A stretch of 64,000 nt of DNA. Source: Physcia stellaris (Eukaryota > Ascomycota > Lecanoromycetes > Caliciales > Physciaceae). Under the pieces are notes generated by a model. The model saw only the letters and a list, made by a program, of their open reading frames with translations. It searched no databases and was not told where the DNA came from. The position numbers were made by a program, and so were the translations under genes. Of this stretch, positions 1-49,341 are shown one piece after another. Where the stretch lies: positions 1 to 64,000 of the forward strand of contig JABSSW010000062.1 of the NCBI GenBank assembly GCA_018902385.1, read 5' to 3'. Within the stretch, counting starts at the first letter, position 1; every line of letters starts with the position of its first letter.

Positions 1-3000
1 AATCGAATCGTCGAAAAAAATGAAATTTATCATTTTATTGAGCAGCAAAACGATCAAAAATAAACGTTCACGTACAATTTGAATTGACAAACATGATGTA
101 AAAAATGAATGTACAAGACGAGAAAAATATTTGAATATACGTTGCATCGAAAATTCTGATTTATCAAAACGAATAAAAATTACAATTCAATGAAAAAGAG
201 ATTGCAAATGAATTATAAAAAACGTTTCGAAAAATCAATAACGATGCAAAAAAATGTGATTACGAAAACGATTTAATATATATTGAATACAAATTGTGCA
301 TTTCGTGTTTGATAAAAACAATCAATCAGAATTTAATTGATAATCTAACACGAATCGATAAATTCAATGATAAAAACGACGTTAATGATCATTTTAAAAC
401 AAAAATTTCAAAACAGACGCGAAATGAGAAAAATAAAAAATATTTGATACGACAGAAGCGAAACAAACTGTCAATGATTTTGATATGTAAAAAACGATTT
501 GAATGTTCAAAACAAAAAAAAACGAAATAAATGAAAAAATCATCAAAAAACAAAATGATTTTTTGAAAACATGATACGCACGAATAACAATCAACAAAAC
601 AAAAAAAACATCAATCGAAAATTATGCGAAAAAAAGTGAACTTATCTGATGCGTTTTGAAACATTCTGAAACAATTCAATGTTTCAAGAGTGAATTTTGA
701 ATCAACAATGAACGACTTAAAACAAATTTCAATTGTTTGAAATTTGTTTTTGACGAAACGTTGTTGATCTGAAACAATGAAAAACAATGATTTTGACTAT
801 TTGATTAAACGACTCGAGACAAGTTTCAAGCGTCAAAATCAGTCGAACATTTTTCTCGACGTGATTGTTGAACAAATGATTCACAAAAATTACAAAAACG
901 TCGAAAAAATTTTTTATCATAATTTCGAGAATAAATGCATCAAATGATTTTTCAAAAAAAAATTAATGATGACAAATTTATGTCATCATTCAAATTTATC
1001 GCGATATCGTCGTTTTTCATGTCAATTCGTTGATAAAAAGTATTGAAACAACAAATGAACGATTTTTTACATGTTTTGATTGTTGAAAAAATACGAAATT
1101 TATATCAACGTTAAAATTTGCATCAATGCGAAATTCGTAAAATATTTGTACAAATATATTTTCAAAAAAAAAAACAATTATGTCGACGTATTTTTCAACA
1201 TTATTATTATTCGTCGAATCAACGAATTTCGTGCGAATCGACAAAACAACGAAAAATTCGTTAACGAAATCAAAATTTTTTATGACGCGCGTTGAATAAA
1301 ATTTTGCGAATTCGTTTAACGTATATTTGATTTTTTTTTTGATAAAATTAAATTCGCAATTATTCGATTTCAATTGCATTTGAAAAATCGCAATCGAATT
1401 TTCGTTAATTTCAACGATAAAAAAATTGCAAATCAAATGATTAAAAACGAAAATTTTCGCATAATTCAATTGATCGAATATTTCGAATTAAATTGCATAA
1501 CGCACGAAATCGAACGCAATAATAATTTTTTTTGTTATTCGCAAAAAAAATCGCAAAATCATTATGAATTCACGAAATCATTTTTATCAAAACATTTTCG
1601 ATTTTTTTGTTTGAAACAAAAAAAAAACGTGAACATCGCGACAAAAAAAAAATGCGTAAATCGAATGTATTTTTATGAATTTCAAATTCGACGACGTTTT
1701 TTATTTGCGTTTGTTGTTCGTCAACAAAAAAAATGCATTTTTTTAAAAATATAAAAATCGTGAATGTGCAAATCGAAAAAACGTTTAATAAAAAAATCGT
1801 TTTTCGATTTTTGAATTACAAACAAATTTGCGTTGAATTCGATTTAATTGACGACAATGACGAATAAAATGCAATTATGATCGAAATCATCGAATTCGAT
1901 ATTGCGACGATGTTAAAAAAATTATTCGTAACGATTTTGATCGAATGTAATTTTGCGAAATTCTTGAAATTGTGAACGAAACACAAAAAATGTAAATCAA
2001 TTTCGATTGTTTTTCGAATGTTGAAATGTTCGAAATAAATTTGAATATACTCAAACTTTGTATAATGATGTTGAATTTTCTAAATTTTTCATTGATTGAA
2101 AATGAAATGACACGTGTATATTTTTAAATGTTTTTTTATTTTTGTTTCGATTTTTATTTTTTGCGATCGCATTTTCGATTTTCGTGCATTTTCATTAATT
2201 TCATTGTAAATTTTTTTCGAATTGCAAAAATATAATAATTCGCGATCATTTTTTTTGCAAAAATTTATTTTGAAAAATTTCATTGAAATCGATTTGAATG
2301 CATTGCACGATCAAAAAAAACAATTGATATTGTTTTTGTTGTCAAATTTGCTGAATAAAATTGTTGACGACGAAATTTCAAATTTTTTTCATTATAATTT
2401 GTTCGAATCATTTATTGATTTTGATCAATACGTTCAAATCAAAAATCGTTTGATTCGCGAAAAAATAACATTGATTGATTTTTTAATTTTTGTCGTCGCG
2501 AATTAAAATCGATTTAATGCGAATCAATTGCATGCGATCAATACGATCGTTGACGCGATCAAAAAAAATAAAAATTCGTGAAATCAAAATCAATTTTTTT
2601 GACGATTTTGAAAACACGAATAAAATTTTCGTTTAAAACATCGTCATGATCAAATTACGTTCGAAAAATGTTATTGTTTTTGCGATAATTTTTTCAAATA
2701 TTGCGATCACGTTTTTGAACGACGATATTATTGTTCATTTTAAATTCAAAATTTTTTTGAATTCGAAAAACGAAAACATTTGTTTAATCAAAAAAAATAT
2801 TAATCGTGTCGAGTTTATTAAAACAATTAAATTGATTTTTTGAAACGAAATTTTTATGTAACGAAAATAAAATTTCATGATCGTCAATCGTATTTTTTTT
2901 TTGATTTTTGCGATGTTGACGAAATCGTTTTTTTGAAAAAAAAAAATGATATGTTTTTGCGAAAATTTCAAACAATGTTTTTTTGTTGTTTTTAGAAAAT

Positions 3001-3944
3001 TTCGAAATATTATCGTCGATATGTGTTTGCAAAAATCGTTTTTTTAAAATGACGTGAAATTTTTTTTTATTATCAATATGCGTTTTCAAAATTTTTCGTT
3101 TATCGAAAAAAATCGTTAAAAAATCGTTGTTTTCGTTAAAAACGTTTTGAATATTGACGATACGATAAATATCGACGAAATCATCAATTTCGCATTGTAA
3201 CATCATGAATATTTGTTTAAAACGAATTTTTTGCAAAGATTTTTTAATATCATTTATTTTGATTTGAGTTTTCGTTTTTTTAACAATCAATATTTTAACG
3301 AACGAATCATTTTCGTCGTGATTAATATCGACGTTCAGAAAATTAACGAAATTTGCGTCGATAAATTTCGTGAAAACGTGTATTTTAAACACAATTTCAA
3401 TATTTTCGTTGATTTTGAATTGAAAAATGAATTCGACGACGAATGTTTTTATCATTACAACGAAATTTCGTTTTTTTTTCATATTTTTCGTTTGAAAGTC
3501 GATATGTTTGTCATAATATTGCGAAATTTGAAATTTTTCGTCAAATGCAATGAAATCAAAATTCGAATTATTTGCATAAATAAACGAATTATTGAAATCG
3601 AAATCATTGACAATAAACGAAAAAATATCAAAATCGTCATATTTCGCATATCGTTGCAATTCAAAAATGACGAAAACAATAAAAATCGTCAAACGAATGT
3701 GTTTTGTCAATTTATTAAACGTCAATATTTTATTCGATCGATTTTCGCGATGATCATCAACAAATTTCAAAATCAATCGTTGCAATATGTGAATATCGAT
3801 ATCAAAATGCGAAATTGTTTTATTCATGATCAATTTTACGTAATCGTGTTTAAAATCACGAATAAACACAATTTTCACATCGTTATATTTGAATTGAATG
3901 TGTTGTCAAACGATTTTTCGCGAAAAATTATTAATCATCAATGA
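1..3944 (+). pseudogene. Helitron Rep/Pif1-like helicase remnant
   Basis: Decayed coding region of a rolling-circle Helitron; its 5' part lies before the window. Landmarks appear in the expected order on the plus strand but across several frames. Near 870-900 there is a match to the Helitron QMIHGPCG segment with the glycines lost. At 1,140-1,160 the translation reads KYLYKYI, the hallmark after the Rep domain, followed by an equivalent of the KxFLDAR segment near 1,270. At 1,662-1,720 RMYF plus a basic/aromatic run matches the G-R-M-Y-F...Y-L-R-L-L segment. At 2,512-2,570 NANQLHAINTIVDAI matches the start of the Pif1-like helicase. Walker A lies at about 2,594-2,630 with its glycines changed to Asp/Glu/Asn. 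From 3,450 to 3,944 the C-terminal helicase motifs follow (RNL..., EIEIID, FAMIINKFQNQSL for the usual FAMTINKSQGQSL, then HDQFYVIVFKIT for HGQLYVALSRVT). The HUH Rep motif itself was not located. It is non-functional. Identification rests on motif order and is strong for the helicase part. Confidence 0.8.
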
Positions 3945-5315
3945 AAAAAAATTTTATTAAAAAAAATTAAATTCGATTAAAATTCATGTTATGTTTCGAA
4001 ATTGATGTCAATCGATTGCGTTTTACGAAATTTAATCATTTATTTATTTATTTCGCAACATTTTATTCATTCAATTTTTCGTTTTTTTATCGTTTTTACG
4101 TTGCATTTTGTTTTTTTTGCATTCATTTTTTTCATTCAATCGATTTTTTTCATTTTTCAGATTTTTTGCAACATTTTCAAACTGTTTCGTCGTTGTTTTA
4201 TCGTTTTCAATGTTTGCTTTTCAATTCATTTCGCGAAAATTCGTATCAATTAATCAATATTACGATACGATCTGAATACGAATTTAATTCGTTTGAAATT
4301 TTCATGAATTGTTTCGTCGAATTTCTATAGCAAAATTCAAAAATTTTCGATTTGAAAAGTTTCGTTTTTCGAAATTTATGTTCAAAAATCAATGTTACGA
4401 AACTATTTTAATTTTTGAACGTATTACGTTTAATCAAATCAAATATACGAAACATGCGCAATCGAAATCAAAAAACAAACATTGAAAATGATTGAAAAAC
4501 GACGAAACAATTTGATGTTGTTGCGAAATTGCGAAAATTCGATTATTTGATCGACATGTTGTTGTGTGAATTATTTTTTCATATGAGAAATATATGTATA
4601 TGATCGCTAACTTCGACATGTTATAAATAATTTGTAATTGACGTGTGATGATCGTTGTCGTCGTCGATAAAATCGAATTTGTTTGAAATTTTGTCATTTT
4701 CGCAAAGAAATTTTTTCATGTCGAGTTGATTTTCGCGACATTATTGTTTAATTGAATCAAAATCAAAATTCAATTTTGCGTTTTTTCGTTTTTTTAAAAA
4801 AATGCAATTTGAATCAAATGTCACGATCATGCGCATTTTTCGAATTTGATTGCAATTAAAATTTACAATTGTTTCAATTCGTACGTTGTAAAATTTTCAA
4901 AAAATAATGACGTATTGTTCGAAAAGATGTGTGAATACGAAATATTGATTGTTCGATTGTTGAAATTTCGAATTTCAATGAAAAAAAAATTTCGACATTC
5001 GATTTCAAAAATTTCGAAAAACATTTGTTTCATGCATCACATATCTCGATGCGCAAACGATTTACGATCGCGAAATTTACGCACATGCATGTTTATAATC
5101 GTACAATCAAATCATTTTAAAAAATAATAATTGCGAACGTTGTAAAATTAATAATATATGTCGTCGAAATCGTTTCGTGAAAATTTTCGAATGTTGTTAA
5201 AATTTAAAATTACACAATTTTTTTTAAAAAAAAATCACGAACAAATTTGTAACGATAATAATTTAATATCATTTGTATATCGAAATAATCATGAATTATA
5301 TACAACATTATTTAC
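3945..5315. other. AT-rich stretch, nothing recognised
   Basis: Sequence downstream of the Helitron helicase. Frames at 3,986-4,330 (+), 4,434-4,697 (-) and 4,846-5,127 (+) are open but lack Gly, Pro and Trp and match nothing I can name. A Helitron 3' hairpin followed by CTRR could not be found, as expected if ApG and GpG have been destroyed. The stretch at 4,846-5,127 may be the upstream part of the transposase scrap described next. Confidence 0.5.
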
Positions 5316-5600
5316 ATGTTTTTGATATTGTCAAAAAAACATTGCGTTTTTTTTCAAAAAAAAAAACGATTTTTCAATATTTTTAAAATGCACAATTTGC
5401 TTCATTATTCACATTTCATTCGAAAATACGATATTTTGACAAATTTTAATATCGAAATTGAAAAAACGATTCATTTGAATCATTTGAAAATTTTGTGAAA
5501 TTTAATCAACAAACGAAAAAATTATGAAAAACAAATGTTACAAAACAATACGCGTCGAACAAATGTTTTGATTGTCGATGATTACGATTTGTAAAAACAA
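5316..5600 (+). pseudogene. Possible DDE transposase fragment (Plavaka/KDZ-like)
   Basis: The translation reads FKMHNLLHYSHFIRKYDILTNFN, then IEKTIHLNHLK, then after a stop NKRKNYEKQMLQNNTRR. The layout (Lys-Met-His-x-Leu-x-His-Tyr, an acidic 'E...H' step, then Asn-Lys-Arg-x-x-Tyr-Glu-x-Gln-Met-Leu-x-x-x-Thr-Arg) resembles the C-terminal part of Plavaka/KDZ-type transposases of fungal DNA transposons, which carry a similar 'FPKMH..HY...IR..G' block. The catalytic Asp residues were not located and no terminal inverted repeats were found. It is badly decayed. The assignment is from memory of the family pattern and could be wrong; a different gene carried by the neighbouring Helitron is an alternative. 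Confidence 0.3.
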
Positions 5601-6524
5601 AATCGTACAAACGATCATGTTGAAATTCAAAATATCGATTTAACGAATAATTCGAAAAATAAACAACAAACAAAAATCACGAAATGCAAAAACATGAAAC
5701 AATTAAAATGAATAATTGATAAAAACGAATAACAAATCATTCGACGATTGAAATGTAATTTACGAAATTGATATTATGCGTTCATAATAACGATTCAAAT
5801 TCAAATTTCATATCTATTAGAAAATTTAATTTTGTTTATTTTTAAAGAAAAAACAAAACAAAATTGTTTCGAATCGTGTCAAAAAATCAATTACAACAAA
5901 AAGTTTTTTTTTCGTGAATAAAATATTATTCAATTCAAATGTATGAAAATTTAACAACATAATTTAAATTAAATATTATCGATTATGATGTAAATCGTTT
6001 AACAATTTATATATGTCGAACGATTTTCAATTGACAAAAACACGAAAAACGTCGATGTGATTACGTGTGAATTCAAAAATAAAAATTCGAAACAATCGAC
6101 AAAAAAACAATCGACGTTTTTGAAAAAAAAATGAATCAATTACAATTCATATTAATCGTGAAAAATTTGATCGATATAATGCGAAACGATTCGTCAAAAA
6201 AATACATTAAAATGTTGATTAATTTATTACGTATACGAAACAAAAATATCATTGATGATATACATAATATAATGAAAAAAAACGTTTCGTGTTCAATACA
6301 TTCAAAAAATCGAATTTAAATTTTTATCGTTTTTACAATATTTCGAACATTGTGCGTATTATTCATATTGTATCAAACATTGAAAAAATATCAAACGTAA
6401 AATATATTAATTTTTTTTAAATGAAAAAATTATCAAAAATTTCACGATTCAAATTTTTTTCAAAACGATATTCGAACAATCAAACGAATACGATCGAAAA
6501 TCGTCAAATAATAATATCAATTAT

Positions 6525-6616
6525 TTTTGTTGTTGTTACGAACATGTTTTGAAAAAAATTTCGATAAAATTTTTGTTGTTGTTACGAACATGTTTTGAAA
6601 AAAATTTCGATAAAAT
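6525..6616. repeat. Tandem duplication, 46 bp x 2
   Basis: Two adjacent copies of a 46-bp unit containing GTTGTTGTTACGAACATG. The copies appear identical, so the duplication is younger than most of the point mutation around it. Confidence 0.9.
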
Positions 6617-7151
6617 TTTATTTTATCAACGAAAATCGTCATGAAAATTAACGCGATTTAAAATTTGACGTTTACAATTTATTTTTGACATTCGATTTTC
6701 ATGTACATATTTGTTTTTTAAATCAAATATTTTCGTTATGTTATTTGTAAATCACACGTTTTTTATTCATTTAAAAAATTCACGATAATTTTGTTTTACA
6801 TTTAAACATTTATGAATTCAAACAATAACGATTTTTGACAAAAAATATTTGCATTTTATTTTCGATAATTTAATTATATTTTGACGCAATAACATTTTTT
6901 TTTGAAAACAAAACGATACAAACAAAATTTTCAAAACACGAAAATGCAAAATGCGATCGATATTTTCAAACATTCGATGTTTTCAAACAAACGAAAATTT
7001 TTATTCACAAAACAAAATACAAAATCGTTAATATGATTATTCAAACAATTACGATCAAATAAATTACATTGAATACGTTATGTTTTATTTATGATTAACG
7101 AATTTTTGTTTTCAAAATGTCAAAAAATGATTGAAAAATTGCATACATTCG

Positions 7152-7255
7152 TTATTACAACAAATTGTTCGCACGAATTTTTTGATATACAAAACGATAA
7201 TAATTATTACAACAAATTGTTCGCACGAATTTTTTGATATACAAAACGATAATAA
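7152..7255. repeat. Tandem duplication, 52 bp x 2
   Basis: Two adjacent copies of a 52-bp unit containing CAAATTGTTCGCACGAA. They are essentially identical and again post-date the mutational decay. Confidence 0.9.
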
Positions 7256-8462
7256 CATTACGTTTGAATCGTAATTATCGTTTAATATTGTATTCATTGA
7301 ATATGCGTTTCGCACAATTCAATGATGCAATTAAATTTCGAAATTTGAATCGAAATTCGTTATTGTTGTTCGATGAAATCATTTTGAATTGTTGTTCGAT
7401 AACGATAATTTTCACGAAAAAAAACGAAAACAATATTTTTTTTATTGACAAAAATTTATCAAAATTTCATTGATTGATGCAATCGATTGAAAATTCAAAA
7501 AATGTTAAAAAAAATCGTATTAATTTTTTTAATTTTCAACATTTCATTAACGAAAATATAAAAAAATACGAAACAACGTGAATTTTTTGTTTTGCAAAAA
7601 CAAATTTTATTCGATTTTTTTTGTTCATTATCGCATGTGAAACAAAAAATTTTACGAATATCGAATTAATAACAATTTATTCGATGTTGATAATCGTAAA
7701 TGACAAAAACGAATTCGAAATTTCGAATTGTGTCAATGTTACAAAAATCGATATTTCACATGTTGTTTTTGATTTTTTGACATATTTTTGATTACAAAAC
7801 AATGATTATTTGTCGTTCGATTCAAAATTTATTTTTTTTACAAAAACGATGTCGAAAATGAAAAATTATTGTTCATATATTTGATTTGATTTTTGCAATT
7901 TTGATCGATCGAAATTAATATCATTTAATAAAATGCATTGTTTTTTTTTAATGTTTCATTTCGAAAAAAAATTATTGTTGATTTCATTAACGATATTGTT
8001 ATTTTCAATTTTTGAATGACGAAAATCGATCAAAAACGATGTTTTATTTAAAAAAAATGACACGATTCAAAAATAACGATTTTTTTTTGCGAAAAAAATT
8101 CGAAATTATTGTTAGAAAAATAAATTGTTCGTTACATTCATTGAATATTTCGAAAATTTTTGACTCAATCAAAAAAATTTTGTTAAAACGAATTATCGAT
8201 GTTCAATGATTTTTAAAAATTTAATTTTTCGACGATTTTATTTCGACAACATTTTCATTTTTACAAATGATTTTTCGACGTTTTTCGATTTGATCGTAAA
8301 AAAAACGAATTCGAAATTTCGAATTTTCAATGTTCAAAAATCGATTTTATTTTCGTTTTTGATTGACATCATTTTTTCAATTTTCGCATTTTTGATTTTG
8401 TCGACGATTTTTTATCGACATATATTTCATTTTTTGACAACTAATTTCGTTGAAAAAAATTA

Positions 8463-8600
8463 TTTGATTTTGTCGACGATTTTATTATCGACGTTATATT
8501 TTCATTTTCGCATTTGATTTTGTCGACGATTTTATTATCGACGTCACATTTTCATTTTCGCATTTGATTTTGTCGACGATTTTATTATCGACGTTACATT
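8463..8600. repeat. Tandem repeat, 50-bp period, about 2.7 copies
   Basis: Each unit contains GATTTTGTCGACGATTTTAT followed by TATCGACG, so each holds a TCGACGAT / ATCGACG near-palindrome. A degenerate further copy sits just upstream near 8,393-8,420. Copies differ at one or two positions. Confidence 0.9.
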
Positions 8601-11600
8601 CAAATTAATAAACAACGAATAAAATTTATTGTTTCACATATCATTGTCGACATAATGTCATCATTATTCAATCATTGATTTCAAAATATTGAACAAAAAA
8701 ATTTGTTTTAACACGTGATTTACATTCGCGACGACGTTTCGATCGCGCAATATATAAATATGTTCGTTTTCGAAATTGTTTTTTTTTTCAAAAATTTGTT
8801 TTATCAATTTTCGAAACATAATTTTAATTACAAAATAAACGTTCAAAATTTTATTATCGAAACAAATTTGATTTGATGCAAATGAATTTCATTGTAATTA
8901 TCGTTAAAAAACGTTATCACAATGAATTTTTTTCGCATAATCGCATCGAATAAAAATGTCGTAATTGTTTATTTATTTCAAATTTTTTGTTTTTTGTCGT
9001 TGATATTGACATTATCAAATTGCGTTCACAAAAAAATGTTGTAATTATTATTTTATTCAAATCAAATTCGCGATTCAATGATTTACAATTGTGTATAATT
9101 GATTCAAATATTTAATGTTTAACAACAAAAAAAATTACATTTTTTATCACATTTATTTTTTCATAACAATTGTATTTATGACAATAACATTCGAATCGAT
9201 CGAAATGTTGTCACGAATTGTAATTTCGAAAAAAATGTGATTCGAATTTGTTTGAACAACGATCGTTCGTTAACGTCATTTTCGAATTTGTTTACGTTTT
9301 TTTTTTCAATTTTTGTTTCAATTTGTTGATACGAATTTCAATCGTTCACAAATTGTCGCGACATTTGATTTTCATTTTTTTATAACATTGACGATTTGAA
9401 TTCGATAAAAAATATCGAAATACAAAATTTTTTTTTCGTCGTTATTGACATTTGATTCATGAATAATATTGAAAAAAAATAAAATCGTTTGATATTTGTA
9501 TCGATCAATCAAAATTTGCATTCGAATTCGCAATTCGATCGATTTCGACGAAACGTTTACACAAAAAAAAAAAAATGATTGAAACAAAAATTATTGACGA
9601 CGAATCAATCATTTCGAATTGACATTGAATATCGTTCAATAATCGACAAATTCGAAATATTGATATAAACGTTGATAATTGATATGTTTATAAATTTTAT
9701 ATCAAATTTCGAATAATTTTTGTTAAATGACATCAGAAAATTTCATTGTCAAAAATTTTAAAAAAATTGTGATAAATCAAAAATAATTTCACAATTCGAA
9801 AATTGAAAATAAAAAATGTTAATGAATATGTAAATTGAATTTGTGAATAAAATTTGTAATTTGATTGATATTTTTTAAAAATCAAAACATTTGAAACATG
9901 TAATCGTTTTTATAACAAAATAACGAATTTGCAAATTATCACGATACGTCAAAACACGTTAATAATACAAATATTTCAAAAAAAACAACAAATCGTTTTT
10001 AACGTTAAACGATACGAACGTTAAACGAAACAAATTTAATTGCATGAAACACGTTAACGATCAAAATAATTTTTTTTTTATTTTAACACGATTTAACGAT
10101 CGAATTAAAAATTGAAACAATTTGATTGAAATTAATTCAATCGAACGCGATTGATCGCGTTTAATCGATTTTATTTAATTTTTTTTGACAATTGCATGAA
10201 TATCGTTGCATTTTATTTTCATATTCGTCGATTTTTATTTAATCGTTATACGAATATATCAACATTTCGAATTCGAAAAAATTTTATTGCATTGTTACAT
10301 AACGTGCAATTCGACGATCAAATTCGACATTATTCGTAAATTTGTACATTAATTGTTTGTTTAACGCGTTCGTATAAATGCGAATTACATGTCGAAAATA
10401 TCGATTATAATGATTATTTTCAATATTTTTCGTGAAAAAAATTGAAAAAAATTGAACGTGAATTATTGAACAAATAATCGCATTCGTTTTGATTCAAAAA
10501 TAAATAAAAAAATGTACAAAATAATATACGTTTTTTTGAAAAAAAAAATTGATTAAAAATGAAATGTTAAATAACAAATTTAATTATGTTAATATTCAAA
10601 AAAAATTGCAATCGATTTTTATCATAATCAAAAAAAAATATTTTACAATATTCGAAAACGTCGATTTCGCATAAAAAAACATGTTTGTTTTATTGAATTC
10701 AAAAAATCAACAACAATTGCAAAAAAAAACGTACAAATTTAATATTATTAAAAAAATCATGCAATAATAATTTTATTATAAAATTTTATTTATTCAATGT
10801 CGTTTTCGATGCAATTATATTTTTTTTTTGAAAAAAAAAATTGTTATAACGAAATGTGTCGATCAAAAAACATGATTTTTTCAAATATTTTTTTAAAAAT
10901 TACAATAAAACATTTGAAATTTGATAAATTTGTACAAATATTAAAAAAAAATGTAAAAATAAATTTCGAATCGAAATTCATACATTGCGATTTATATGAA
11001 TTGAAAAATATCAAAAATCAACAATGCAATTTTTTTTCGTTTTTGAAAAATCGCGATTTTCGAAATGTATTTTTATGAATTTCATTATTTGCAATTTTTA
11101 ATTAAATCAAATCAAAATAAATCATTAATGCAAACTAAAAAAACATTTTAATTTAACGATTTGTATTAAAAATTAACATAACAAATTATAAAAACGATCG
11201 ACGTACAATTTTTCAAAAAATCAATATTTTGCGATCAATTCGATTCAAAATATCAATTATATCAACGTTAATATCGTTGTGCGAATCGTCGCAATAACGA
11301 CGATTTTTCATTTTTTCAATTTATTTATTTTTCGTATTCAAATTATTTTTCAAATTATTTTTTTGTTTTTTTATTGTTCATTTTTTTTTCACGATTTATT
11401 TCGAATTTTTCGATTCATAAAAATCGAAAACGAAAATTGTAACACGAAATATATTCAAATAAAATCAAAAAAATTGACGAAAATTGAAAATATAATTGAA
11501 AACAAATTGAATTTAATGCAAATTTGATTCGATATTAAACAATATATAATTTTTTGCAATTACGTCAATTGTGAAAATTTCGAAAATCGTATCGAAATGT

Positions 11601-11748
11601 TGAAAATTTTCGCGATCGCACGATTCATAAATCGTATTCAAATATTGTCAATATTTATTTTTGACATTATTCAATTGTTGTTGAAATCATTGAACACAAT
11701 CGAAAACAATTTACAAATGTTTAAATCATTTCAAATACGATCGAAATA

Positions 11749-11920
11749 TGTTATGAATTTTGCATGTTATGCATGCTTGACGTAAAATCAAAATTGAATT
11801 TTGTGAATAATTTGATCAAAAAAAATTAACGTTTGTTTCAAAATTTTCATATATGTTCGACAATTTTTTAAATAAAACAATGAAACATATTATTTATTTA
11901 TATTACGATTTATCGTAACA
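11749..11920 (+). repeat. 5' LTR of C1
   Basis: 172 bp, TGTTA...TAACA inverted termini, preceded by AAATA. Confidence 0.9.
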
Positions 11921-13902: not shown

Positions 13903-14074
13903 TGTTATGAATTTTGCATGTTACGCATGCATAACGTAAAATCAAAATTGAATTTTGTAAATATTTTGATAAAAAAAAATTAACGTTCGTTTCAAACTTT
14001 TCAAATGTGTTTGACAATTTTCTAAATAAAACAATTAAACATATTATTTATTTATATCACGATTTATCGTAACA
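13903..14074 (+). repeat. 3' LTR of C1
   Basis: 172 bp, same termini, followed by AAATA. It is preceded by a T-rich stretch and CGTGAACATT, which also precedes the LTR at 20,579. Confidence 0.9.
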
Positions 14075-19440: not shown

Positions 19441-19445
19441 TTGTA

Positions 19446-34803: not shown

Positions 34804-35549
34804 TTATTTTTCGTTTTTTTTCAATTTCGTTTCGAAACGATCAACAAACGATCAAACGTTTTTTTTTTTTAACGACAAACGTTTTGCGCGATTTAGATGC
34901 GTTGTTGAATGACGTTGAATTGAATGATTGATAAAATGAAAAAATAAATTCGAAATGTTGTGAAATCGATTTCGTTCGCGAAATCGATTCGTCAAAAATC
35001 GTGAAAACATCAAATCGATTTACGATGAAAATAAACAATTTGATCATGTTAATAAAATCGTCGTAACAATGTTTAACGTTTTGATATTTTCGCGTATGTT
35101 ACGAAAATTTCGTTTACATTGCATGCGATAAAACGTGAATGTAATAAATGTTTTGAAAAATAATTAATTCATACGTTTCGTCAAAAATAATTTCGACGAA
35201 CATTAATAAAAAAAATTGTAAATTCGATTTAACGCGTCAACAATTTTGAAAATTTTTGCAACATCAAATTGATATCACGAAACAAACAATTTGACAAATC
35301 GATAAAATTTTATCATTCGATTAACGCGTCGATGTTATCGCATATACGACGTTTGATTCGTACAATGCATTCAACGAAATATGCATGTATTAAATTTTTG
35401 AAAAACAAATATTTTGAACGAATTTTACAAATAATTTCGCGTGTCATTAGTAAACAATTGAGAATTTTGTTGACGAATTTGTAAATGTTCGAAATTTTTT
35501 GACAATTTGTTGTTTATTCATATTCATTGCATCACATTTTACATTATTT
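34804..35549. repeat. LTR-adjacent repeat and an inverted LTR fragment
   Basis: 35,020-35,160 is similar to 42,330-42,510 (shared AAATAAAC.GTTTGATCATGTT-like and TTCGTT.ACATT strings), so each of the two minus-sense LTRs is followed by the same kind of sequence. Near 35,508-35,545, TTGTTTATTCATATTCATTGCATCACATTTTACA resembles the end of the plus-sense LTR at 44,467-44,650. This points to rearranged pieces of one family; the order of events is unresolved. Confidence 0.5.
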
Positions 35550-38500: not shown

Positions 38501-40620
38501 TTTTGTTTGAATTGATAAGATTTTTTTGAAAATTTTCGTGAAAATATTTTTGAAAAATTTCGAATTTTTTAAACGATAAAAAATAAATTCGATTTCGAAA
38601 TAATTGAATCGATTTTTCAATCAATTCGATTTTGTGATCGTAAAATTTATGAAAAAATAATTTATCGATTTTTTTTTGAATTGAATACGTTTTCGAATCG
38701 TTTAAAAAATCAAAAATTTTACGTTTCAATTTTTTACGATTGTTTTCATGATTTTAAACGTTTTTTTTGAATTCATATCGAAATCAATTTTTATTTTGAT
38801 TAAATTTTTTTGACGTTGTCAATAATTTCATTTAATTTTTTCATAATCAACGAAAACGTTTTGATTTTTTTCTTTTTAAATTCGATCAGAAATTGAAAAA
38901 CGATCGCGTCAATAAAAAAACATTTAAAAAAAATATCGAAATTTAAATCGTTTTCGTATTTTTCATTGTCGAAAATCGTGATTTTAAATCGTCGACTAAA
39001 TCGTCGAATGAATTTTTTTGATTAAATTCGATTTTCGAATAGAAAATTTCATGAATGTAAATTGTTGAAATTTTTTATAATTTTAATACGTCGTTTCTTT
39101 TTAAAGAATTTGAAAAAAATATTCTTTATCGATTTTTTCAATGACATATCGAAAATTGAAATTTAACACGATTTTCGAAAAAAAAATTCATCGTTTTCGA
39201 CGTAATTTTCAATTGTAAATCGAAATAATCGAATTTTGATCGTTTTCGACGATGAACGTCTTTGAAAAATCGTATATTTTTGAAAATTTATCGATGCTGA
39301 AAATTTTTCGAACGACGTAAAAAAAAAAAAAAAATTTTTTGATTGAATGTCGTTGTTGAAAAAACGTTTTCAAATTTTAAACGTTTCGAAATGAATACAA
39401 CGATCAAATTTAAAAATGATTTTATCGATTTGCATGTTTAAATCACGTCGTGCGCGTTCATTCAAGATTTATTCAAAATCAAAAATGAACGTTTATTTTC
39501 GATAATGAACATAAAAATAAATAATTGAAATGATTTTGCATTGTGAATTTGAAATAAATAACATGAATAATAGATTTAATCAAACGATCGTCAAATTCGT
39601 TAACGTGTTTAAATCGAATGAAAAAATTACAAAATTTATTTGAAATTTTTCACAAATCAATTGCGCAATTTTTTCATCAATGAAAACAAATTCAAAACGT
39701 TTGTGTTCATTAATGTTTTGCACGTTGTGTTCGTATTTATCGAAAATTAATTTATTGAATGATTAATGAATTGTTTGTGAATTTATTGAACGTGTTGAAT
39801 GTTTTGAAATTGTTGAAATCGACAACATTTTTTCGCGATTTTGAAAAATTTAGATTTTTCGATTCATGTTCGAATGAGAATTTTTCGTTAATTTCGCTGA
39901 TTTTATCGTTCGTGAAAATTGATTTAATTGAATCGAATTTTTGAACAAAAAGTCGATTATTTTTAATTTTCAAAACGTTTTTTTTTACGTAATATTTTCT
40001 GAATGTAAAGAACAATCGATTCTGATTATGAACAATTTTTTGATCAATGATTCGACGTTTCGCACTTGTAACAATTTGACGACATTTTTTTTAATTTGAA
40101 AATTTTTAAGCGCGATCAGTTTCGAGACGAAAAATTTTTTAAAAATTGACGAGATGAAAACACGAATAAAAAATTTGACGTTGATTTTTTTATTAATTGA
40201 TTGATCAATTCGAATGAATGTTTCAAATTTAACGATTTGATAATTTTTCAAATTGTGACGATTTTTGATTCATCGTTTCGATTAATTTTTCCAGCGAATT
40301 GACATCGTTGAATTTTCAAATTGTTGACAATAATTCGTTGAAAAACAAACGTTAATTTTTCGCGAAATTCATCAATCAGAATTTGTGAAAGTAATTGAAT
40401 AATTGATTAGATAAAAGTACGAATTTCGAAAAAAATTTCGAAAAGCGTTGATTGATGTTTATTTTGAAATTTTTAAATTTATTTCGCACGATACGATCGA
40501 TGTTTTTTTCGACAAAAATTGTAATCAATAAAATAAACATTTCGTCGATCGTTTTGAAAAACAAAAAATTATGTTTGCGTCGAACAAAAACATGATCGCG
40601 AACGATTTTATTCAATCATA
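35550..40620 (-). pseudogene. Gypsy (copy A): gag, RT, RNase H region, integrase
   Basis: Minus strand. Gag: 40,615-40,376 resembles the retrotransposon gag core (FKTIDEMFILLITIF..., KFKNFKININQRFSKFFSKF, LSNQLFNYFHKF). RT: 38,729-38,202 is open for 175 codons with FFHKFYDHKIEL, ILFVVKSN, LCIDYRKLN, KLNIISIFNKFRM and YKYHVLFF, an ordered match to Gypsy RT (K..G..R.C.DYR.LN...KLD....F...R......Y...V.PF). RNase H end and integrase start: 37,426-37,094 opens DYNIKIQYQFEIKNVKTNVL, as in DYDI.Y.PG..N..AD.LSR, then LYERVMQINRKN. Integrase core: 36,818-36,630 has IIDRLIKKRHYVF and LFHYVFRIHEL. Tail: 36,460-36,176. It aligns with copy D. Every Gly and Pro of the family is replaced. It lies between the two minus-sense LTRs, which probably, but not certainly, belong to it. 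Confidence 0.8.
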
Positions 40621-41871
40621 ATAACACGATCAAAATTTTCATTTGATTCGTTGAATAATAATCATTGTTAATAATGAATTTGTTACGAATCAATTGTTTT
40701 CAAATTTCATATGATAATTTCGAAATGTTTTGTGAAAATTTGAAAAAATTCGAAATTTTAACATTACGTTTTTTATTTTTTGTAACGTTTGTATTTGAAA
40801 ATGAAACGAAAACGATAATATCGATTTTTTTCAAATTAATTTGAAAAATAACGTTTTCGATCGTGAATTGAAAATTTTCGATAAAAAAATCGTTGTTTTT
40901 AAATTTAAAATCGATTTGTTAATTTCGAATAATTTGAATCGTATTGACAAATTTATTGTAATTATCGACATGTTCGTTTCATTGAACAATGCAAATTACG
41001 TCGATATTTTTATCGACGCGTAATTTTTCGAAAATTTTAAAAATTGATGTCGAATCATGACGAACTCAATTGATCAATTGTGTTTCAATACAAATGTTGA
41101 AAAAATTTTCACAATCGTTTTTTTTTATCGAAAATTGATGAACGTTTTCGAAATGACAACAAAAAATGTTCGAATTCAAAAACAAAACAATGAAATCAAA
41201 TAATTTTTGTTTTGATTTAAAAACAACAATACGATCGATTTGAATAATACGTTTAAATCAAAATATTTCATGAATGCAAATATGTTGAATGACATAATTG
41301 TTTGTAAGAAAAAAATTTAATTTGCAAAAAAAAATCGAAATCGAAAAGCGTTTGCAATAAGAAATAAAAAAATCATTATTTGATCATTAATAGTTGCGAA
41401 AAGCAACGAATGATATGTAACGTGTTGTTTAAAAATGTGATAAACAAAATGAATAATTGATATTTGATTCGTGATGTTTCGTTATTGATGTTGATTTTGA
41501 TGAAATCGAACATCGTTTACACAATTTGTTGTTTTCGTTCAATGATCGAAAATAATGTCAATTCGTCGTTTCGATTTGTAACGTACGATTTCGTCGTCGT
41601 CTTGTTAAAATATCGAAATGATTTTTTCGTGAAAATTTACATTCGAAATCGTTGTTTTCTGAGAAATGATTTGCGTGAAATAGAATTTCGATGTTTTCAT
41701 TCGAATCGTTTGAGTTTTTGATTTCACGTGAACAAAACTTTTTCGTTTTCGTTGCACGTTTAAAATTTAATTGTTGACGTTTTAGATTTTCGCGTTTGAT
41801 TGAAATTTTGTTTATTGAATAAATTGTCGTATTTCGAACAACTTGAAAAAATTAAAATGATTTAAAAATAA
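40621..41871. other. AT-rich leader-like stretch, nothing recognised
   Basis: Between Gypsy A gag and the LTR at 41,872. Open plus-strand frame 41,464-41,721 has no family resemblance. If the LTR is the 5' LTR of Gypsy A this would be its untranslated leader and gag start. Confidence 0.4.
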
Positions 41872-42085
41872 TGTGAAATGTCATGCATTGATTGAACTAA
41901 TACATAATTACACGAGAATTTCTAAGTGAGAAGCAAATACATGAAAATTTGTAAAAACATATGTAAAAATTAGATCGTTTGAATGCGTCAAAACGAATTT
42001 CGATTCTAACATTCGATGTGATAAGATAACGATGTTAACACGATGTTAATTTGTCAGATGTTGAATTCGATGCACGCTCGTCACA
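41872..42085 (-). repeat. LTR, family of the 44,467 element
   Basis: 214 bp, TGTGAAATGTCATGC...GCTCGTCACA. It retains more CT/AG (AATTTCTAAGTGAGAAG, GATTCTAAC) than its partner at 34,586, so it has been mutated less. Confidence 0.8.
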
Positions 42086-43018
42086 TTTCATTGACATCAA
42101 TTTTGAAATAATATCGAAAGTTTCAATTATCACTTCAATTTTATTAAATTTTTCAAAACGTGACGTCAAGATTTGACACGATGAATTAATTACATCAATC
42201 ACACATGTTAATCACGTTAAAAATTATTTTCAATATCGAACAAAATTACACGATATCGTTCGAAAGATTACACGTCGTCGACGTGAAAATGAAACACGTC
42301 GTTACAACAAAAAAATTAAAAAAATAATTCATCAAATAAACAGTTTGATCATGTTATATCAAAAATTTTTTGACAAATTACAATCTCGTTGACGCGAATC
42401 ATTTCGAATTATCGATTATGAAAATATTCATGAATTTTCGTTCACATTACGTCAATCAATTACAAAGCGTGACATACGTGATACATTTCATGAAAATCAT
42501 TTAAAGACGTTTATATCGCGAATTGACTATTTATCGAACAGCATTTTTGATCAATATGAATCGAATCAAATTATACGTCGATCACGTAAACAGCGACGCA
42601 AGATTTAAAAAGAAAAAAATAAATGAATGATGTTAAAAGTTAATCGTAAAAGTCAACAGAAATAATTAGCATGAAATAATTAACATGCTAAACAAATTGT
42701 TTGATTTGATATATTATTCGAACAAAAATTATATCACAAATTAAATGTTTTGATCGTTGAAACTTTTGCTTGTTATATGAAAATAAAAAAAAAAAAACAT
42801 TAAATTAGTGTGAATTAATCATTCATCGTGTACTTAATCGATCGTTCGATTTCGTAAATTTTCTTATGCATTTTTTATTTACAAAATCATTTGTTTGTTT
42901 TGCATTTATTCTATTTTAGAATGTTGTACGAGTACTTTTTTTATTTTTCTTTGAAAACGATTTTGATACAAAACTGATTATTTCGACATTCATTTAATTT
43001 TTTTCTCTGTTCTTGCCG
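42086..43018. other. Moderately mutated stretch, 3' flank of the RTA1-like gene
   Basis: 42,330-42,510 repeats sequence found after the LTR at 34,586. On the plus strand 42,500-42,609 reads FISRIDYLSNSIFDQYESNQ and ends ...RRKI stop, a plausible but unidentified C-terminus. From about 42,840 CT, AG, CC and GG reappear, meaning the sequence is single-copy and was largely spared. Confidence 0.5.
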
Positions 43019-43186
43019 CTATGTCATCTTTGATTGTACGTATGCTTGGAATGCTTGATATAATTTCTCATCAATTGGCATCAAACCTCTCGTGCAACTT
43101 TTCGTCTTTTTTGTAACGATATTATGAATAACATCATTGTATTTATTAGTCGTTTCGTGATACATCGAACGTTTTTTTTTTTTTGA
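43019..43186 (-). pseudogene. RTA1-like gene, C-terminal tail (cut off by insertion)
   Basis: Minus-strand frame SKKKKRSMYHETTNKYND...RGLMPIDEKLYQAF ending at a stop at 43,019. It is the only frame left of 45,500 that contains Gly and Pro, so it is host single-copy sequence and not a mutated repeat. It is in phase with the RTA1-like fragment at 49,342-49,674 when the element 43,192-49,341 and one 5-bp duplication are disregarded. The lysine-rich, hydrophilic composition fits the cytoplasmic tail of an RTA1-family membrane protein. The tail sequence itself matches nothing I recognise. Confidence 0.6.
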
Positions 43187-43191
43187 AATCT

Positions 43192-43318
43192 TGTTAAAAT
43201 CGATATCTTCAGAATCTTGATATACGTGACTAGAACAATAGATCAAATAAGTCACGATCGCATGTAATTAGAATTTACACATTTACATCAATGAAATAAT
43301 ACGATTCAAACTTCAACA
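43192..43318 (+). repeat. Left LTR of the Copia-type element
   Basis: 127 bp. It differs from the right LTR mainly by T for C before C or T and A for G after A or G (for example GAATTTACAC against GAACCTACAC). Confidence 0.85.
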
Positions 43319-43675
43319 AATTATGATGTTCGCGCACGCAAAAATTGCACATTAATCAATCTTATTACATTATATTGTGTTCGTGATAGTCACGTCAACG
43401 TTGTACACGTCGTCGTCGTCGTCGCAATGACAAAAATCAAAACGATAAACATAAATGATCACAAAATTCGTTTATTCATCGAAAACAATTACAATGATTG
43501 ATTGATAAATATACGAGTCATATTACGTTCACGAAAGTTTTGAAAATACGCAATCGAATTTTATACGTTTATTTTCAATTCAATAAATTTCAAGAAATTC
43601 ATCGAGTTGAAAATAATCAACGTCAAAATCGAAAAAATTGAATGAAAAAACAAAATCGAAAAAACGATCGATTAC

Positions 43676-44176
43676 ATGACGTTTACAATAAACACAAAAA
43701 TGAAAAACAAATTCAAAAACGAACATTTCAACAACAATTATAAAATATTATTGAAAATAAAAAAAAAATTGAAATTCATCGACGATGCACAATTCATGAA
43801 ATTCACAAAAAAATATTATTCGTTGAATATCAAGAATTTCAAAAATATGTCAAAATTTTTGAACAAAATCAAAAAACTGAAAAAACAAATTGATGTTACA
43901 AAAATCAATTTCATTGTCGATAAACGAACAATTATTTGTTTCATGATGAAATTAACACATGATCGAAAATATCGTTCGTTGATACAAATTTGAATCGTCA
44001 TGTCGAATTTCACGAACGAAAAAACGAAAATCATGTTTATGAAAAAATATCGTCAACAAAAACACGTGAAAAAGAACATCGATGCGATCAAAACAACGAA
44101 ATCGAACAACAAAAAAAATTCAAAATTTGCATGTAAGAATTGCGATAAATCACATTCAAATTTATGTTGAAATATT
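43676..44176 (+). pseudogene. Copia-type gag with zinc knuckle (decayed)
   Basis: Plus-strand frame 43,676-43,993 contains FMKFTKKYYSLNIKNFKNMS, FLNKIKKLKKQID and MMKLTHDRKYRSLIQI. This is the layout of fungal Ty1/Copia gag (UBN2-like: ...W..L...Y........L...L..LK......V.......L...L P..Y..L). After a TGA where Trp is expected it continues to a knuckle at about 44,125-44,170, CKNCDKSHSNLC (C-x2-C-x3-H-x3-C). In the element this protein would form the particle and bind RNA. No protease or pol follows before the nested insertion. Confidence 0.7.
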
Positions 44177-44466
44177 CATTCAAAATCGATTTTCGAATGA
44201 TTAAAAAAAAAAAAAAAAAAACGCAACGTAATAAAATCAACACATTGAATGACAAAATCAAAAAAAATTAAATTTCACACATTGATTTACATTTTCGAAT
44301 TCGATATCGATAAAAATTATACAAATTCAGCAAATGAAAATATCGATTGTCGATTTCGTTAACGAAAACAACAAAAAATTTCCAAATTTAAAAAATTTGA
44401 TTGTTTCGAAACATTGATTTCAATTTTACATGTAACGAAAATCAAAATTTTCATCAACGTATCGAA

Positions 44467-44650
44467 TGTGACGAACGTATTATGTGTTAAAATTTTGATA
44501 AATATTTGAATTTTTATTTTATCACATCGAAATTCGAATTCGAATTTCGTTTATGATCAAATTATTTACATATAATTTGTCAAATTCTCATAGTTAATTT
44601 TGCAATTTAAAATTTTGTTGTTTACTCATATCATTGCATAACATCTTACA
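44467..44650 (+). repeat. 5' LTR of copy B
   Basis: 184 bp, preceded by TCGAA. It carries most of the mutations that distinguish the two LTRs. Confidence 0.9.
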
Positions 44651-45705
44651 TTATTTTAGATTTTTATCAAACTTATCAGAAGTATGTTTTCGTACATGTC
44701 TCAATCATAATTTGAAAACAGACAGTTGAAAAAAGCATTGCGTATTTCGCAACAAAATTTTGTCGATCAAATTTTAATTTCTAAATCATCAATCAACGAA
44801 TTTCGATTTTTTTTTTTCTACACGTTTATTCAAATCTATACAACTTATTTACATTCTCGTCGAGATACGCGAATTTTAAATAAAATTTCATTTCACTTCA
44901 TTACGTCATCGAAAAACGACTGTATCAGAAATTTTGTTACAGCATCAAATTTCTGTTCAATATCGAAATCATTCTGTCTGTTCGAAAATATTTCAAAATT
45001 CTACTCAATTATTTAGCGAATCGATTATTCTTTTTTGTTTTCACGATGCATTGTTCACATTGTGACGACGAACTTTCAAAAACGTTTACAATTCGCAAAC
45101 ATTATTAACAAGCCGACATTTGTTCTGAGACTATTCGACATCGAATTGCACATTACGATGCTATTCATCATTGCTTTTTAGAAATCAAATTGATCAGACG
45201 AGAAAAGCAAAAAAAGTCGCAATGATCAGACAAGAAAAACAAAAAAAGCGAAAACAAATCGAATTGATCGAGCAAAAAGTTGCAAAGCAAACAAAAATTA
45301 AAATCATTAAAATCGCAAAATCAACATCAAGTTTTTCAAATATCGATATATTCGATTCAACATTCATATGTGATATTTTGAAATTTGATTTATACAACAA
45401 AATGATAAACTTTTTGCAACATTTTCAGCAAATTCAATATCAATATCGAAAGTCAAAAGTGTTCGATTTATTGTTCAAATGTTTTCGAAATTTTGCATTC
45501 GCATGATTTAATAATCAATCAAATTTCATCATTATACAGAATTTCGACAAAGATTTAACATGTGCATTTCTTATTGATTCGTTCGAATTTATATCGATAT
45601 CATCTATTTCATCACACGTTTCACATTTTTCGACTCAGTATCATTCGTGCGTTGAATGTTTTGCTTCAATTCTCGTCAATGATTCGACTTCTAAAACATA
45701 TCAAA

Positions 45706-45898
45706 TGTCAGGGACCGTGCCTGGCTAAGAGGTAAACAGGTAGCAAAACGAGAATATTTGATCTAGGGAGCAAATATGTACAAGACGGCCGAAATGCCTG
45801 AAGTAAATTGTGCGCCAAGCCCAGATCACGCTAATCCCCATAAGGACTCCCGCTGATAAGATAAGGCTTCAACCGAGATCTCAGGCATGCTCGTAACA
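45706..45898 (-). repeat. LTR of the innermost element (3' LTR if sense is minus)
   Basis: 193 bp, about 90% identical to its partner. 15 of the 18 substitutions are CpY/TpY (RpG/RpA) transitions. Confidence 0.95.
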
Positions 45899-46539
45899 CT
45901 ATCCCCCGTCTCCTCCAAGCTTCGTCCCGAAACGAATAAACCACTTCTCCTACCGATCGGCATTGCGAAAAAATCCATTGGCGGTGACCCAGGTACCTGC
46001 CTGACCATGACTGACGCTGGAAATGCCAAAGCAGATGCGGTAGACGTGGAGAGATAAATCCGAAAGCAGAAAATGTGCGAGAAGGAGGAAGATAGATATA
46101 TGCGGCGAAAATGAGGACCTTGTTGAGAACCTTGTTGAAAACCTTGTTGAGGACCTTGACCTCGATCGATGCGGGAGATACCTGCAAATTAGTATGGTGA
46201 AACGGCCGATTTCTCGAGCAAAACAGAAGCAAAAGCAAAACGGTATTGATTCCGCGAACGTATGCTGTTTCAAACTCCTCGAATTTGGACTTTTCGAATC
46301 CTTATTAATCGGCGCGTCCTGATTGACTGCAAATCCTGAGACAGGGAATCATTGGCGGCATGAACGGCGAACAGACGGCTGCGAAAAAGGCGGGCTGAAT
46401 TGACTGCGTAACAAACCCACATTGACTGTTGTTCTCTACCTCTTCATGCCATGTCATTGCTCCCGTATCGCTGCTGTAATAGATCCACCTCCCATTGGTG
46501 TTGACTGCGGGAGGTGTAAAGAATCGAACGCATGCGCTT

Positions 46540-47270
46540 TTGGAGCCATTGTAGCGGACTCACTGAGGCCGATGTACGGGCTCGTTCATAAAACGTCATT
46601 GAAGCAGACTCACTAGCCGTTGTAGCGGACTCACTGAGTGCCGTTGAAGCAAGCAGATCGCTGAGGCAAGAGCGGAACGAAGCGGAGCGAGGATTTCTCG
46701 GCCATGCTGAAGATATAACAGGCCTAGAAACCGAAAATTTTGTTTGAGATTTTGGGTGGTTGTTTGTTGGTTTGGTGTGAGGTTGTTGTTGTGTGTGACT
46801 TCTATCCCCCTCTTTAACAAACGGTGTCCCAACGCTTCAAGGAGGTGAGTATTGTAGAGGCCGTTCTGATGTATGAACTGACTGGCTCGAGAACAAGGAG
46901 GTCGTCTATTGACTGGCTGACTGGCTCGAAAAGCAAGAAGGTCGGCTATTGACTTGTTTCGTTGACCTGGAGGTGCTCTATATAAACTCCATCCAACTCA
47001 CGGAGGTTCGTCCTGTGGCTCCGTGGCCCCCTCAGAAGACTTGGGTTGAACGCCAAGTGAACAGCATCCACCGCCCCCAAAGGAGAGACTTTCGTTTCGT
47101 GAAGATTCGTCCTGTTGCTCCACTCACGGAGATTCGACCTGTGACTCCGTGACCCCCGCAAGAGGACTTTCGTTTCGTTGACCTGAAGATGCTCTATGTA
47201 AACTCCATCCAACTCACGGAGGTTCGTCCTGTTGCTCCGTGGCCTCCCTCTAAGAGGACTTTCTGGCGGT
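46540..47270. repeat. Internal tandem repeats of the innermost element
   Basis: Three repeat sets. At 46,549-46,640 a unit around GTAGCGGACTCACTGAG occurs about three times. At 46,868-46,952 a unit around GACTGGCTCGA...AAGGTCG.CTATTGAC occurs twice. At 46,960-47,265 a unit around CTCCATCCAACTCACGGAGGTTCGTCCTGT...CTCCGTGGCC occurs two to three times. The minus-strand frame 47,491-46,946 is therefore repetitive (TNLRELDGVYIEHLQVNET twice) and is unlikely to be a real protein. Confidence 0.8.
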
Positions 47271-47575
47271 CTTATTTCGCTTACTCGCGTACCCCGACGA
47301 GCAACCTGTTTCGACAGAGCGTTTGGTCGGGTGTCAATTAGTCTCGCAGAACCCAGGACGAAAAATCGCTGTGCTGAAGACGTGAAGATGACCTCGTCAC
47401 CGTCACTGCGGTTGATAGGGAGGTTTCGTGCTGGAGGTGAAACCGTCACGAGTTGAACTGTGCTGGAGGCGAAACCGTCACAAATTGACAACGGCCTTGT
47501 TTCTTTCTACTCGTTGGCCGCCACGATAACGAGTGTGGAGTTTACATCGCCCGTCACGATGGAGATCAAATATAA

Positions 47576-47767
47576 TGTCAGAGGCCGTGCCTGGCTAGGA
47601 GGTAAACAGGTAGCATAACGAGGATATTTGATCTAGGAAGCAAATATGTACACAACGACCGAATGTCTGAAATAGGTTGTGTGTCAAGTCCAGATCACGC
47701 TAGTCCCCATAAGGACTCCCGCTGATAAGATAAGGCCTCAACCGAGATCTCAGGCATGCTCGTAACA
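47576..47767 (-). repeat. LTR of the innermost element (5' LTR if sense is minus)
   Basis: 192 bp, followed on the plus strand by the duplicated TCAAA. Confidence 0.95.
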
Positions 47768-48746
47768 TCAAACAAGTCAGTTGTTCGAAAATGACATGCA
47801 AGCATTGCGATGCAAATTTCAATTTCAAGAACAAGTTTCACGAACATATACGCGAACATCATGTTCAGAAATCGATCATTTCGTCTGTCACATCAAAGAA
47901 TTCGAATTTTCGATTTTTTACATCAAAATCTACGTACAAAATCGAGAAAAAATCAGCAATCATTTGCTCGTTTGCTTCGTTTATTTCGCTTGTTTCGTTT
48001 GTTTCGTCGATTTTCTTTGCAACATTTACATCGATATTTGAATCAATATCATCAAAATGTTCGCATTTCTTTATTGCGACATTCAATATCACATCGAAAT
48101 CGATGAAGAAATTATCAGTCAATTCATTTACATTTTCGATTTCATTTTCTCGAACATCTGTATCAAAACATCAGAAATTTTATCTCATTATCGATGATTT
48201 GATTCGCATGTTTCGTGAAAAATTTAAATCATTTGATTTACGTCAACATCAAAAGCGTCGTTTTTTTTCACGAAACTTTGACATTTTTTATCAATCACGA
48301 ATCATCGTTTACTTTTTGCTTGTTGTCAATTCGAAGACATCGATTAGTCAAAATCTGAAAAGCTCGAATTCGAAAAGTTTTTAGCAACACACGTTTGCGA
48401 AATCGATTCGTTTTGTTTCTGTTTTGTCAGAAAAATCGATTATTTCATCATACAAAAAGTCAAACATTTTTTACATTTCGTTGTCGTCAAAGTTTTCATC
48501 AAGATTCTCATTCGCATGATTTCGATTTACGTTTTCGTCTGCGTTTTCGTTTACATTTTCGTCATTTTTTCGATTTCGAATTTCAAATCACGTTTGTTGC
48601 ATTTGTTTCGATCATTTCAATTTTCGCAATGATTCGTTCAGTTATCGACGTCTTAGTCAATCATATTTCTCGAATCGTCGATCGATGAGAAAAATGAAAA
48701 AATGATTAATCGTTTCGAAACGAAGTTGAAAAAGAACGAAAAATAA

Positions 48747-48930
48747 TGTGACGAGCGTATTATGTGTTGAAATTCTGATAAATGTTTGAATTTTTATCTT
48801 ATCACATCGAAATTCGAAATCGAATTTCGCTTATAATCAAATCATTTACATATGATTTGTCAGATTTTCATAGTTAGTTTTGTAGTTTAAAATTCTGTTG
48901 TTTACTCATATCATTGCATGACATTTTACA
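48747..48930 (+). repeat. 3' LTR of copy B
   Basis: 184 bp, followed by TCGAA. The better preserved of the two LTRs. Confidence 0.9.
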
Positions 48931-49212
48931 TCGAAAATCAAAATTTTCATCAAATGAAACAGAAAATCGAAATCAAAATCTCGTAAAAATAATACAACAA
49001 GAAAAATTCAAAATTTCAACGAATTGAACAGAAAATCGAAATTCAAAATTTCGTACAACGTAACAAAAAATTGAAATCAAAATCTCAACGAAACGACACA
49101 AAATCGAAATCAAAAATTTCACATATAAATGAAAATTCAACATCATGACGTCACACGATATAAAAAACGAATAAATAAAATCAGATTTCAAAATCTCAAA
49201 TGCAAAAAAAAA

Positions 49213-49341
49213 TGTTAAAATCGATATGTCTCAGAGCCTTGACAACACGTGACTAGGGCAATAAGTCAAATAAGTCACGATCGCACGTAACTAGAACCTA
49301 CACATCTACATCAATGAAATAATACGATTCAGACTCCAACA
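49213..49341 (+). repeat. Right LTR of the Copia-type element; edge of the AT-rich block
   Basis: 129 bp, TGTTAAAATCGATATGTCTCAG...CTCCAACA. Directly after it the sequence becomes GC-balanced gene sequence. Confidence 0.85.

Follow-up and report, generated by a model that had tools for sequence, protein, structure and literature searches.

The window analyzed here, 64,000 nucleotides of contig JABSSW010000062.1 from the ascomycete Physcia stellaris (GenBank assembly GCA_018902385.1; 43.97 Mb in 147 contigs), contains a block of mutated repeats, three nested elements at the right end of that block, and an ordinary flank beyond it (Table 1). Throughout the block, cytosines followed by a pyrimidine (CpY, that is, CpC and CpT) are strongly depleted on both strands, in contrast to CpA and CpG, which are retained. 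The block was very probably made by a repeat-directed mutator of the repeat-induced point mutation (RIP) type with a preference for CpC over CpT.

The depleted block, its edge, and its nested elements

Over positions 1-49,341, CC (136), GG (122), CT (344), and AG (390) occur at an observed/expected ratio of 0.15-0.19, CA (2751) and TG (2722) at 1.20-1.21, and CG (2746) at 3.79. These counts bear out the first-pass annotation of this DNA, which had described the first four dinucleotides as almost missing and the last three as plentiful. TA is also depleted (0.46), the reverse of classical RIP, and A+T makes up 76% of the sequence. If positions 1-45,500 are cut into 91 tiles of 500 bp, 84 tiles lack CpC on both strands and none has more than 4, compared with 38-93 in each of the 29 tiles in 49,501-64,000. 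Mononucleotide shuffles (n=200) of the same AT-rich DNA retained on average 13.3 CpC per 500 bp and never fewer than 5, and AT-rich composition alone was rejected on this ground. CpA and CpG are near normal within the depleted block, while CpT is mostly lost, although unevenly: 28-33 of ~140 sites are left in the kilobases 1-1,000, 16,001-17,000, and 42,001-45,000. The block also includes diverged repeated segments (11,746-14,072 against 20,576-22,813, and 17,604-19,446 against 35,830-37,666).

The first-pass annotation had placed the signature over the entire interval 1-49,341. The depletion stands, but not for positions 45,704-47,767, where GC content is ~0.48 and CpY is not depleted, nor for the right edge, which lies near 49,230. 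This end of the block consists of three nested elements, an outer one enclosing a middle one, which in turn encloses an island. CpY sites are intact from ~49,230 onward in the right end repeat of the outer element, whereas the equivalent stretch of its left end repeat is mutated; hence, mutation stops ~110 bp inside this element. The pentamers beside the outer element, AATCT on the left and GACCT on the right, would be consistent with a target duplication in which ApG and CpC of the left copy have mutated. Being innermost, the island is the youngest layer, and it is the least mutated of the three. Its long terminal repeats (LTRs) differ at 18 of 194 aligned positions, 16 of these differences being transitions.

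Table 1. Features of the window (positions are those of the whole stretch).
Feature	Position	Strand	Remarks
Hypermutated repeat block	1..45703	.	Next to no CpC on either strand, little CpT left, CpA and CpG kept
Outer LTR-type element	43192..49341	.	127-129-bp ends, TG...CA; relatives L040, L041, and L043 lack the middle element
Left end repeat of outer element	43192..43318	.	Mutated at CpC and CpT; aligned with 49,213-49,341
Middle LTR-type element	44467..48930	.	Mutated; ~185-bp ends; target duplication TCGAA; L011, L013, L014, and L015 lack the island
Island: LTR element inside middle element	45704..47767	.	2.06 kb; target duplication TCAAA; lightly mutated
Left LTR of island element	45704..45898	.
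Right LTR of island element	47574..47767	.
Mutated right arms of middle and outer elements	47768..49229	.	Contains open frame 47,791-48,384
Right end repeat of outer element	49213..49341	.	CpY kept from ~49,230
Ordinary flank	49342..64000	.	Normal dinucleotides

In the right flank, all CpN and NpG ratios lie between 0.88 and 1.15, so that the DNA next to the block is spared, this flank being taken as single-copy by assumption. CpN shares are likewise normal in the three methyltransferase regions described below, and the CpY depletion in genes that the first-pass annotation had named as speaking against its proposal was not seen in these regions or in the gene-like flank (single-copy status again assumed). 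A sugar transporter frame (PF00083; 53,353-54,777, + strand) lies 4 kb from the mutated block and has normal dinucleotides. On the other side of the edge, a 197-residue open frame (+ strand) persists in the hypermutated right arms and has no Pfam match. The island contains no convincing coding frame and carries internal direct repeats at 46,956-47,031 and 47,172-47,247.

Related DNA is abundant in the assembly. Positions 42,900-49,600 used as a query gave at least 134 matching pieces, including the query itself, with the best 40 of 467 candidates scored. Of 29 related loci, among which three pairs overlap, 25 contain at most 10 CpC; the remaining four (L007, L008, L032, and L033) are unmutated or mixed. 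The signature was also found in 4 of 20 genome tiles of 600 bp, placed at hand-chosen round positions on the larger contigs, which would correspond to perhaps a fifth of the genome, with a wide error. One of these four tiles (L077, C19:200001-200600) has a GC content of 0.197, no CpC, low CpG (24), and high TpA (54), and perhaps represents older decay or another AT-rich class.

Because TpA is depleted, the standard indices TpA/ApT and (CpA+TpG)/(ApC+GpT) read the block as non-RIP. As the first-pass annotation had anticipated, they miss it altogether: in a comparison run without a positive-control genome, 0 of 90 mutated 1-kb windows scored positive even at loose thresholds, as did 0 of 28 flank windows and 0 of 9 mixed windows.

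Substitutions in aligned repeat copies

The direction and context of the changes were read from copies of a Ty3/gypsy-type element with reverse transcriptase, RNase H, and integrase zinc-binding domains. Two copies, L047 (C5:1165200-1168200) and L048 (C12:59000-62000), are unmutated, share 95% identity over 3 kb, and keep a long open frame; the differences between them have no CpY bias. At least 38 further copies match at 69-81% identity (best 40 of 246 candidates scored), and ~3 kb from each of 12 of these 38, mostly better-matching ones, was aligned to L047. All 12 carry C:G-to-T:A transitions, with transversions at only 0.4-2.5% per copy. C-to-T change affects 4495 of 4864 CpC sites (92%), 3424 of 4537 CpT sites (75%), 345 of 4543 CpA sites (7.6%), and 195 of 4751 CpG sites (4.1%), CpG being the least changed context. 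The identity of the base at -1 or +2 alters the rate only modestly: in the two least mutated copies, the changed fraction is 0.70-0.89 for CpC and 0.37-0.57 for CpT, whichever outer base is present.

This spectrum agrees with the earlier proposal that C before a pyrimidine has been converted and CpA only partly so, and the dominance of CpA-to-TpA in multi-copy alignments, which the first-pass annotation had named as the contrary outcome, was not seen. Classical CpA-directed RIP is ruled out by the aligned-copy spectrum. Dipyrimidine damage of the ultraviolet type was also rejected, as the change depends little on the base 5' of C and TpC is enriched in positions 1-49,341. The preference is best read as CpC > CpT >> CpA ~ CpG.

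The order of loss is fixed: CpC goes first, then CpT. The 554 tiles behind this result come from the window and from 69 loci, the number left of 81 after removal of 12 that overlap; they form a non-random sample, most loci having been retrieved as repeat hits. CpC is zero in 319 of the 554 tiles, whose CpT counts span 0 to >30. The combination of CpT<10 with CpC>=15 occurs in none, that of CpC<5 with CpT>=30 in 34. Once CpT is exhausted, CpA slips from ~67 to 55 per tile, and CpG shows no fall. In the two least mutated gypsy-type copies, the CpT/CpC hazard ratio is 0.36-0.39. This order, together with the nested island and the exact right edge, refines what the first-pass annotation had described.

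An early stage of the process can be seen in the island and its relatives. Five related loci (L035-L039), each bordered by mutated DNA on at least one side, keep much of their CpC (L037 the least). When five island copies are compared with L035, 10-54% of CpC sites are changed, along with 5-17% of CpT, 2-6% of CpA, and 6-9% of CpG. The idea that the island is an old protected element was rejected, its copies differing mostly by C/T at CpY. All six island copies examined are partly mutated at most. In the L037 island, changes lie near both ends and on both strands, with positions ~500-1250 largely spared.

Some copies are mutated mainly on one strand. In the window island compared with L035, RpG (R, purine) has become RpA on the + strand at 99 of 311 sites, against 17 of 230 for CpY to TpY on the same strand (p=9e-13), and L050 contains one-strand tracts of 30/39 versus 2/43 and 56/71 versus 1/48. 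Among 17 copies tested with 500 shuffles each, asymmetry is clear in four, the observed value being reached by 0 shuffles for L050, 3 for the window island, 4 for L053, and 9 for L038.

Several observations weigh against a repeat-directed CpY mutator of the RIP type. Asymmetry is weak in two further copies of the 17 (reached by 23 shuffles for L057 and 26 for L059) and absent from 11. The latter include L036, L037, and L039, all lightly mutated, as well as L051, which is partly mutated. Overlaid rounds of mutation may explain why heavily mutated copies lack asymmetry, but not obviously why these four do. The CpC excess is small in two of the island copies (10% versus 9% for CpG in L039; 16% versus 7% in L038), and the reverse change, T to C, reaches 4-9% in comparisons of island copies with L035, which indicates that L035 itself is no pure ancestor. 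L047 and L048 stay unmutated despite their 95% identity over 3 kb, and the spectrum was drawn from 12 of the 38 further gypsy-type copies.

The coding damage follows the pattern predicted by CpY targeting, which leaves CAA, CAG, and CGA alone. TGG-to-TGA changes account for 139 of the 156 stops in the 12 aligned copies. In ten of the 12, all 13 Trp and all 44 Gly codons have been lost, and Pro codons are kept at 0-2 sites per copy, while 29-34 of 34 Gln and 56-64 of 68-69 Arg codons persist. Across the best 150 of 527 reverse transcriptase candidates, hand-transcribed sums give 250 TGA, 33 TAA, and 3 TAG, with 10 matches free of stops. With stops arising almost solely from Trp, and with Gln and most Arg codons kept, dead elements can retain open frames that mislead annotation.

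Methyltransferase genes and candidate mutators

The first-pass annotation had suggested inspecting RID- and DIM-2-type cytosine methyltransferase genes, and a PF00145 profile search of the assembly found three: two RID-type (L003 and L001) and one DIM-2-type (L002). L003 has PCQ in motif IV and EQT in motif VI, with 85 residues from motif VIII to motif IX. L001 has PCQ and EET in motif VI, and is 40% identical to L003 over 174 residues. Catalytic motifs are present in both. Published hallmarks of the RID family are PCQ in motif IV, EQT or EET in motif VI, and a short target recognition domain of ~80 residues (PMC6709928). By motifs IV and VI, and in L003 also by the 85-residue stretch, the two P. 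stellaris proteins fit the RID/Masc1 family. In L002, DUF7893 is accompanied by a BAH match below threshold. Anisogramma (PMC10998396) and Phialocephala (PMC5148876) are likewise reported to have two RID genes each, with CpA among the dominant targets in both, so gene number alone is no predictor of CpC targeting.

In the mechanism we propose, a RIP-type mutator directed at repeats would have struck the nested LTR-type retrotransposons in several rounds, converting C to T before a 3' pyrimidine, taking CpC first and then CpT and leaving CpA and CpG almost untouched. By analogy with Neurospora, it would act in the sexual phase through homology recognition. The aligned-copy spectrum supports the RIP-type process with altered context preference put forward in the first-pass annotation; as to the enzyme, we infer that the probable catalyst is one of the two RID-family proteins found here, which would read the 3' base in an altered way. 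The mutator could alternatively differ in kind, a possibility to which we give about a quarter of our confidence: one RID paralogue, for example the EET type, might be a dedicated CpC writer, or a guanine lesion at RpG, resembling the temozolomide mutation signature SBS11, might be delivered to paired repeats.

The same repeat-directed process might instead be catalyzed by a DIM-2-type methyltransferase through the heterochromatin pathway. The genome does encode such a gene, and DIM-2 prefers CpT in Neurospora methylation according to a 2026 review (PMC13297926). In P. stellaris, however, CpC leads and not CpT. The Neurospora Dim2 pathway, moreover, hits single-copy DNA flanked by repeats (PMC12543289), whereas the block here ends inside its last element and the flank is clean, with the caveat that repeats were seen on only one side of this flank. 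We therefore regard a DIM-2 catalyst as unlikely. A cytidine deaminase, or another mutator that is not a DNA methyltransferase, could also be recruited to repeats and read the 3' pyrimidine. A CpC-led rule that spares CpA is unlike RIP as published, and the RID enzyme is itself putative here, but the RID-type genes present could already explain repeat-directed C-to-T change, and a deaminase seems improbable, although no search aimed at deaminase families was made.

Explanations that involve no direction to repeats fare worse still. Alkylation-type damage through O6-methylguanine yields C-to-T changes at CpC and CpT, the same context as in SBS11 (PMC12556801). Such damage would be expected genome-wide; it would not saturate repeats and then stop at an element edge beside a clean flank, nor leave 16 of the 20 genome tiles untouched, and we give it very little weight. 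An artefact or ordinary AT-rich composition might be suggested by the A+T content of positions 1-49,341, but shuffles of that sequence keep CpC, the aligned copies show directed C-to-T change, and stops arise almost only from TGG, which leaves this explanation with next to no credence.

Comparison with known RIP systems

Published RIP contexts include CpA, CpT, and CpG (PMC4352252). CpT was described as a dominant form by van Wyk 2021 (PMC7882544), Monilinia shows CpA with some CpC-to-TpT double changes (PMC8959702), and a 2025 survey covering 1,239 fungal genomes arrives at a CpA preference common to RIP-like defences (PMC12543289). In a partial search of the RIP-context literature, which did not include the Clutterbuck 2011 survey of filamentous ascomycetes, we found no precedent for a CpC-led order with CpA nearly spared, although one may exist. 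Repeats in which mutation of CpC and CpT nears saturation and CpA is almost spared run counter to a shared CpA preference as a rule. This genome, which scores zero on common indices, would offer a specificity switch that arose naturally within a RID-type system. The type of damage is changed as well, with Pro, Gly, and Trp codons almost wholly lost and Gln and most Arg codons kept. If the mutator does differ in kind from CpA RIP, the context of repeat-induced mutation would be evolvable and switchable, and CpA-based indices would undercount fungal defences of this kind.

The process in P. stellaris works like RIP and is not canonical CpA RIP; it likely belongs to RIP in the broad sense. It has in common with RIP of Neurospora crassa that C:G pairs in repeats become T:A, that some copies carry one-strand tracts, that RID- and DIM-2-type genes are present, and that the edge falls at a repeat. 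It differs in that CpC > CpT replaces CpA, TpA is depleted, and nonsense changes are almost solely TGG to TGA. The one-strand clustering of Neurospora RIP, where 91.9% of clusters are one-stranded (PMC7296669), is only partly matched.

CpT is likewise a main target in Magnaporthe, Botrytis, and Sclerotinia (PMC4352252) and in Anisogramma (PMC10998396), which also have a RID/Masc1 gene, Anisogramma having two. In those fungi, however, CpT accompanies CpA, whereas in P. stellaris CpA is nearly spared and CpC leads. The CpG-type signatures of Tuber and Microbotryum (PMC4352252; Microbotryum being our interpretation of the code Mvio) share a non-CpA C-to-T bias in transposons, but their target is the context that P. 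stellaris changes least. SBS11 shares C-to-T change at both CpC and CpT, but arises from chemical damage and is not directed to repeats.

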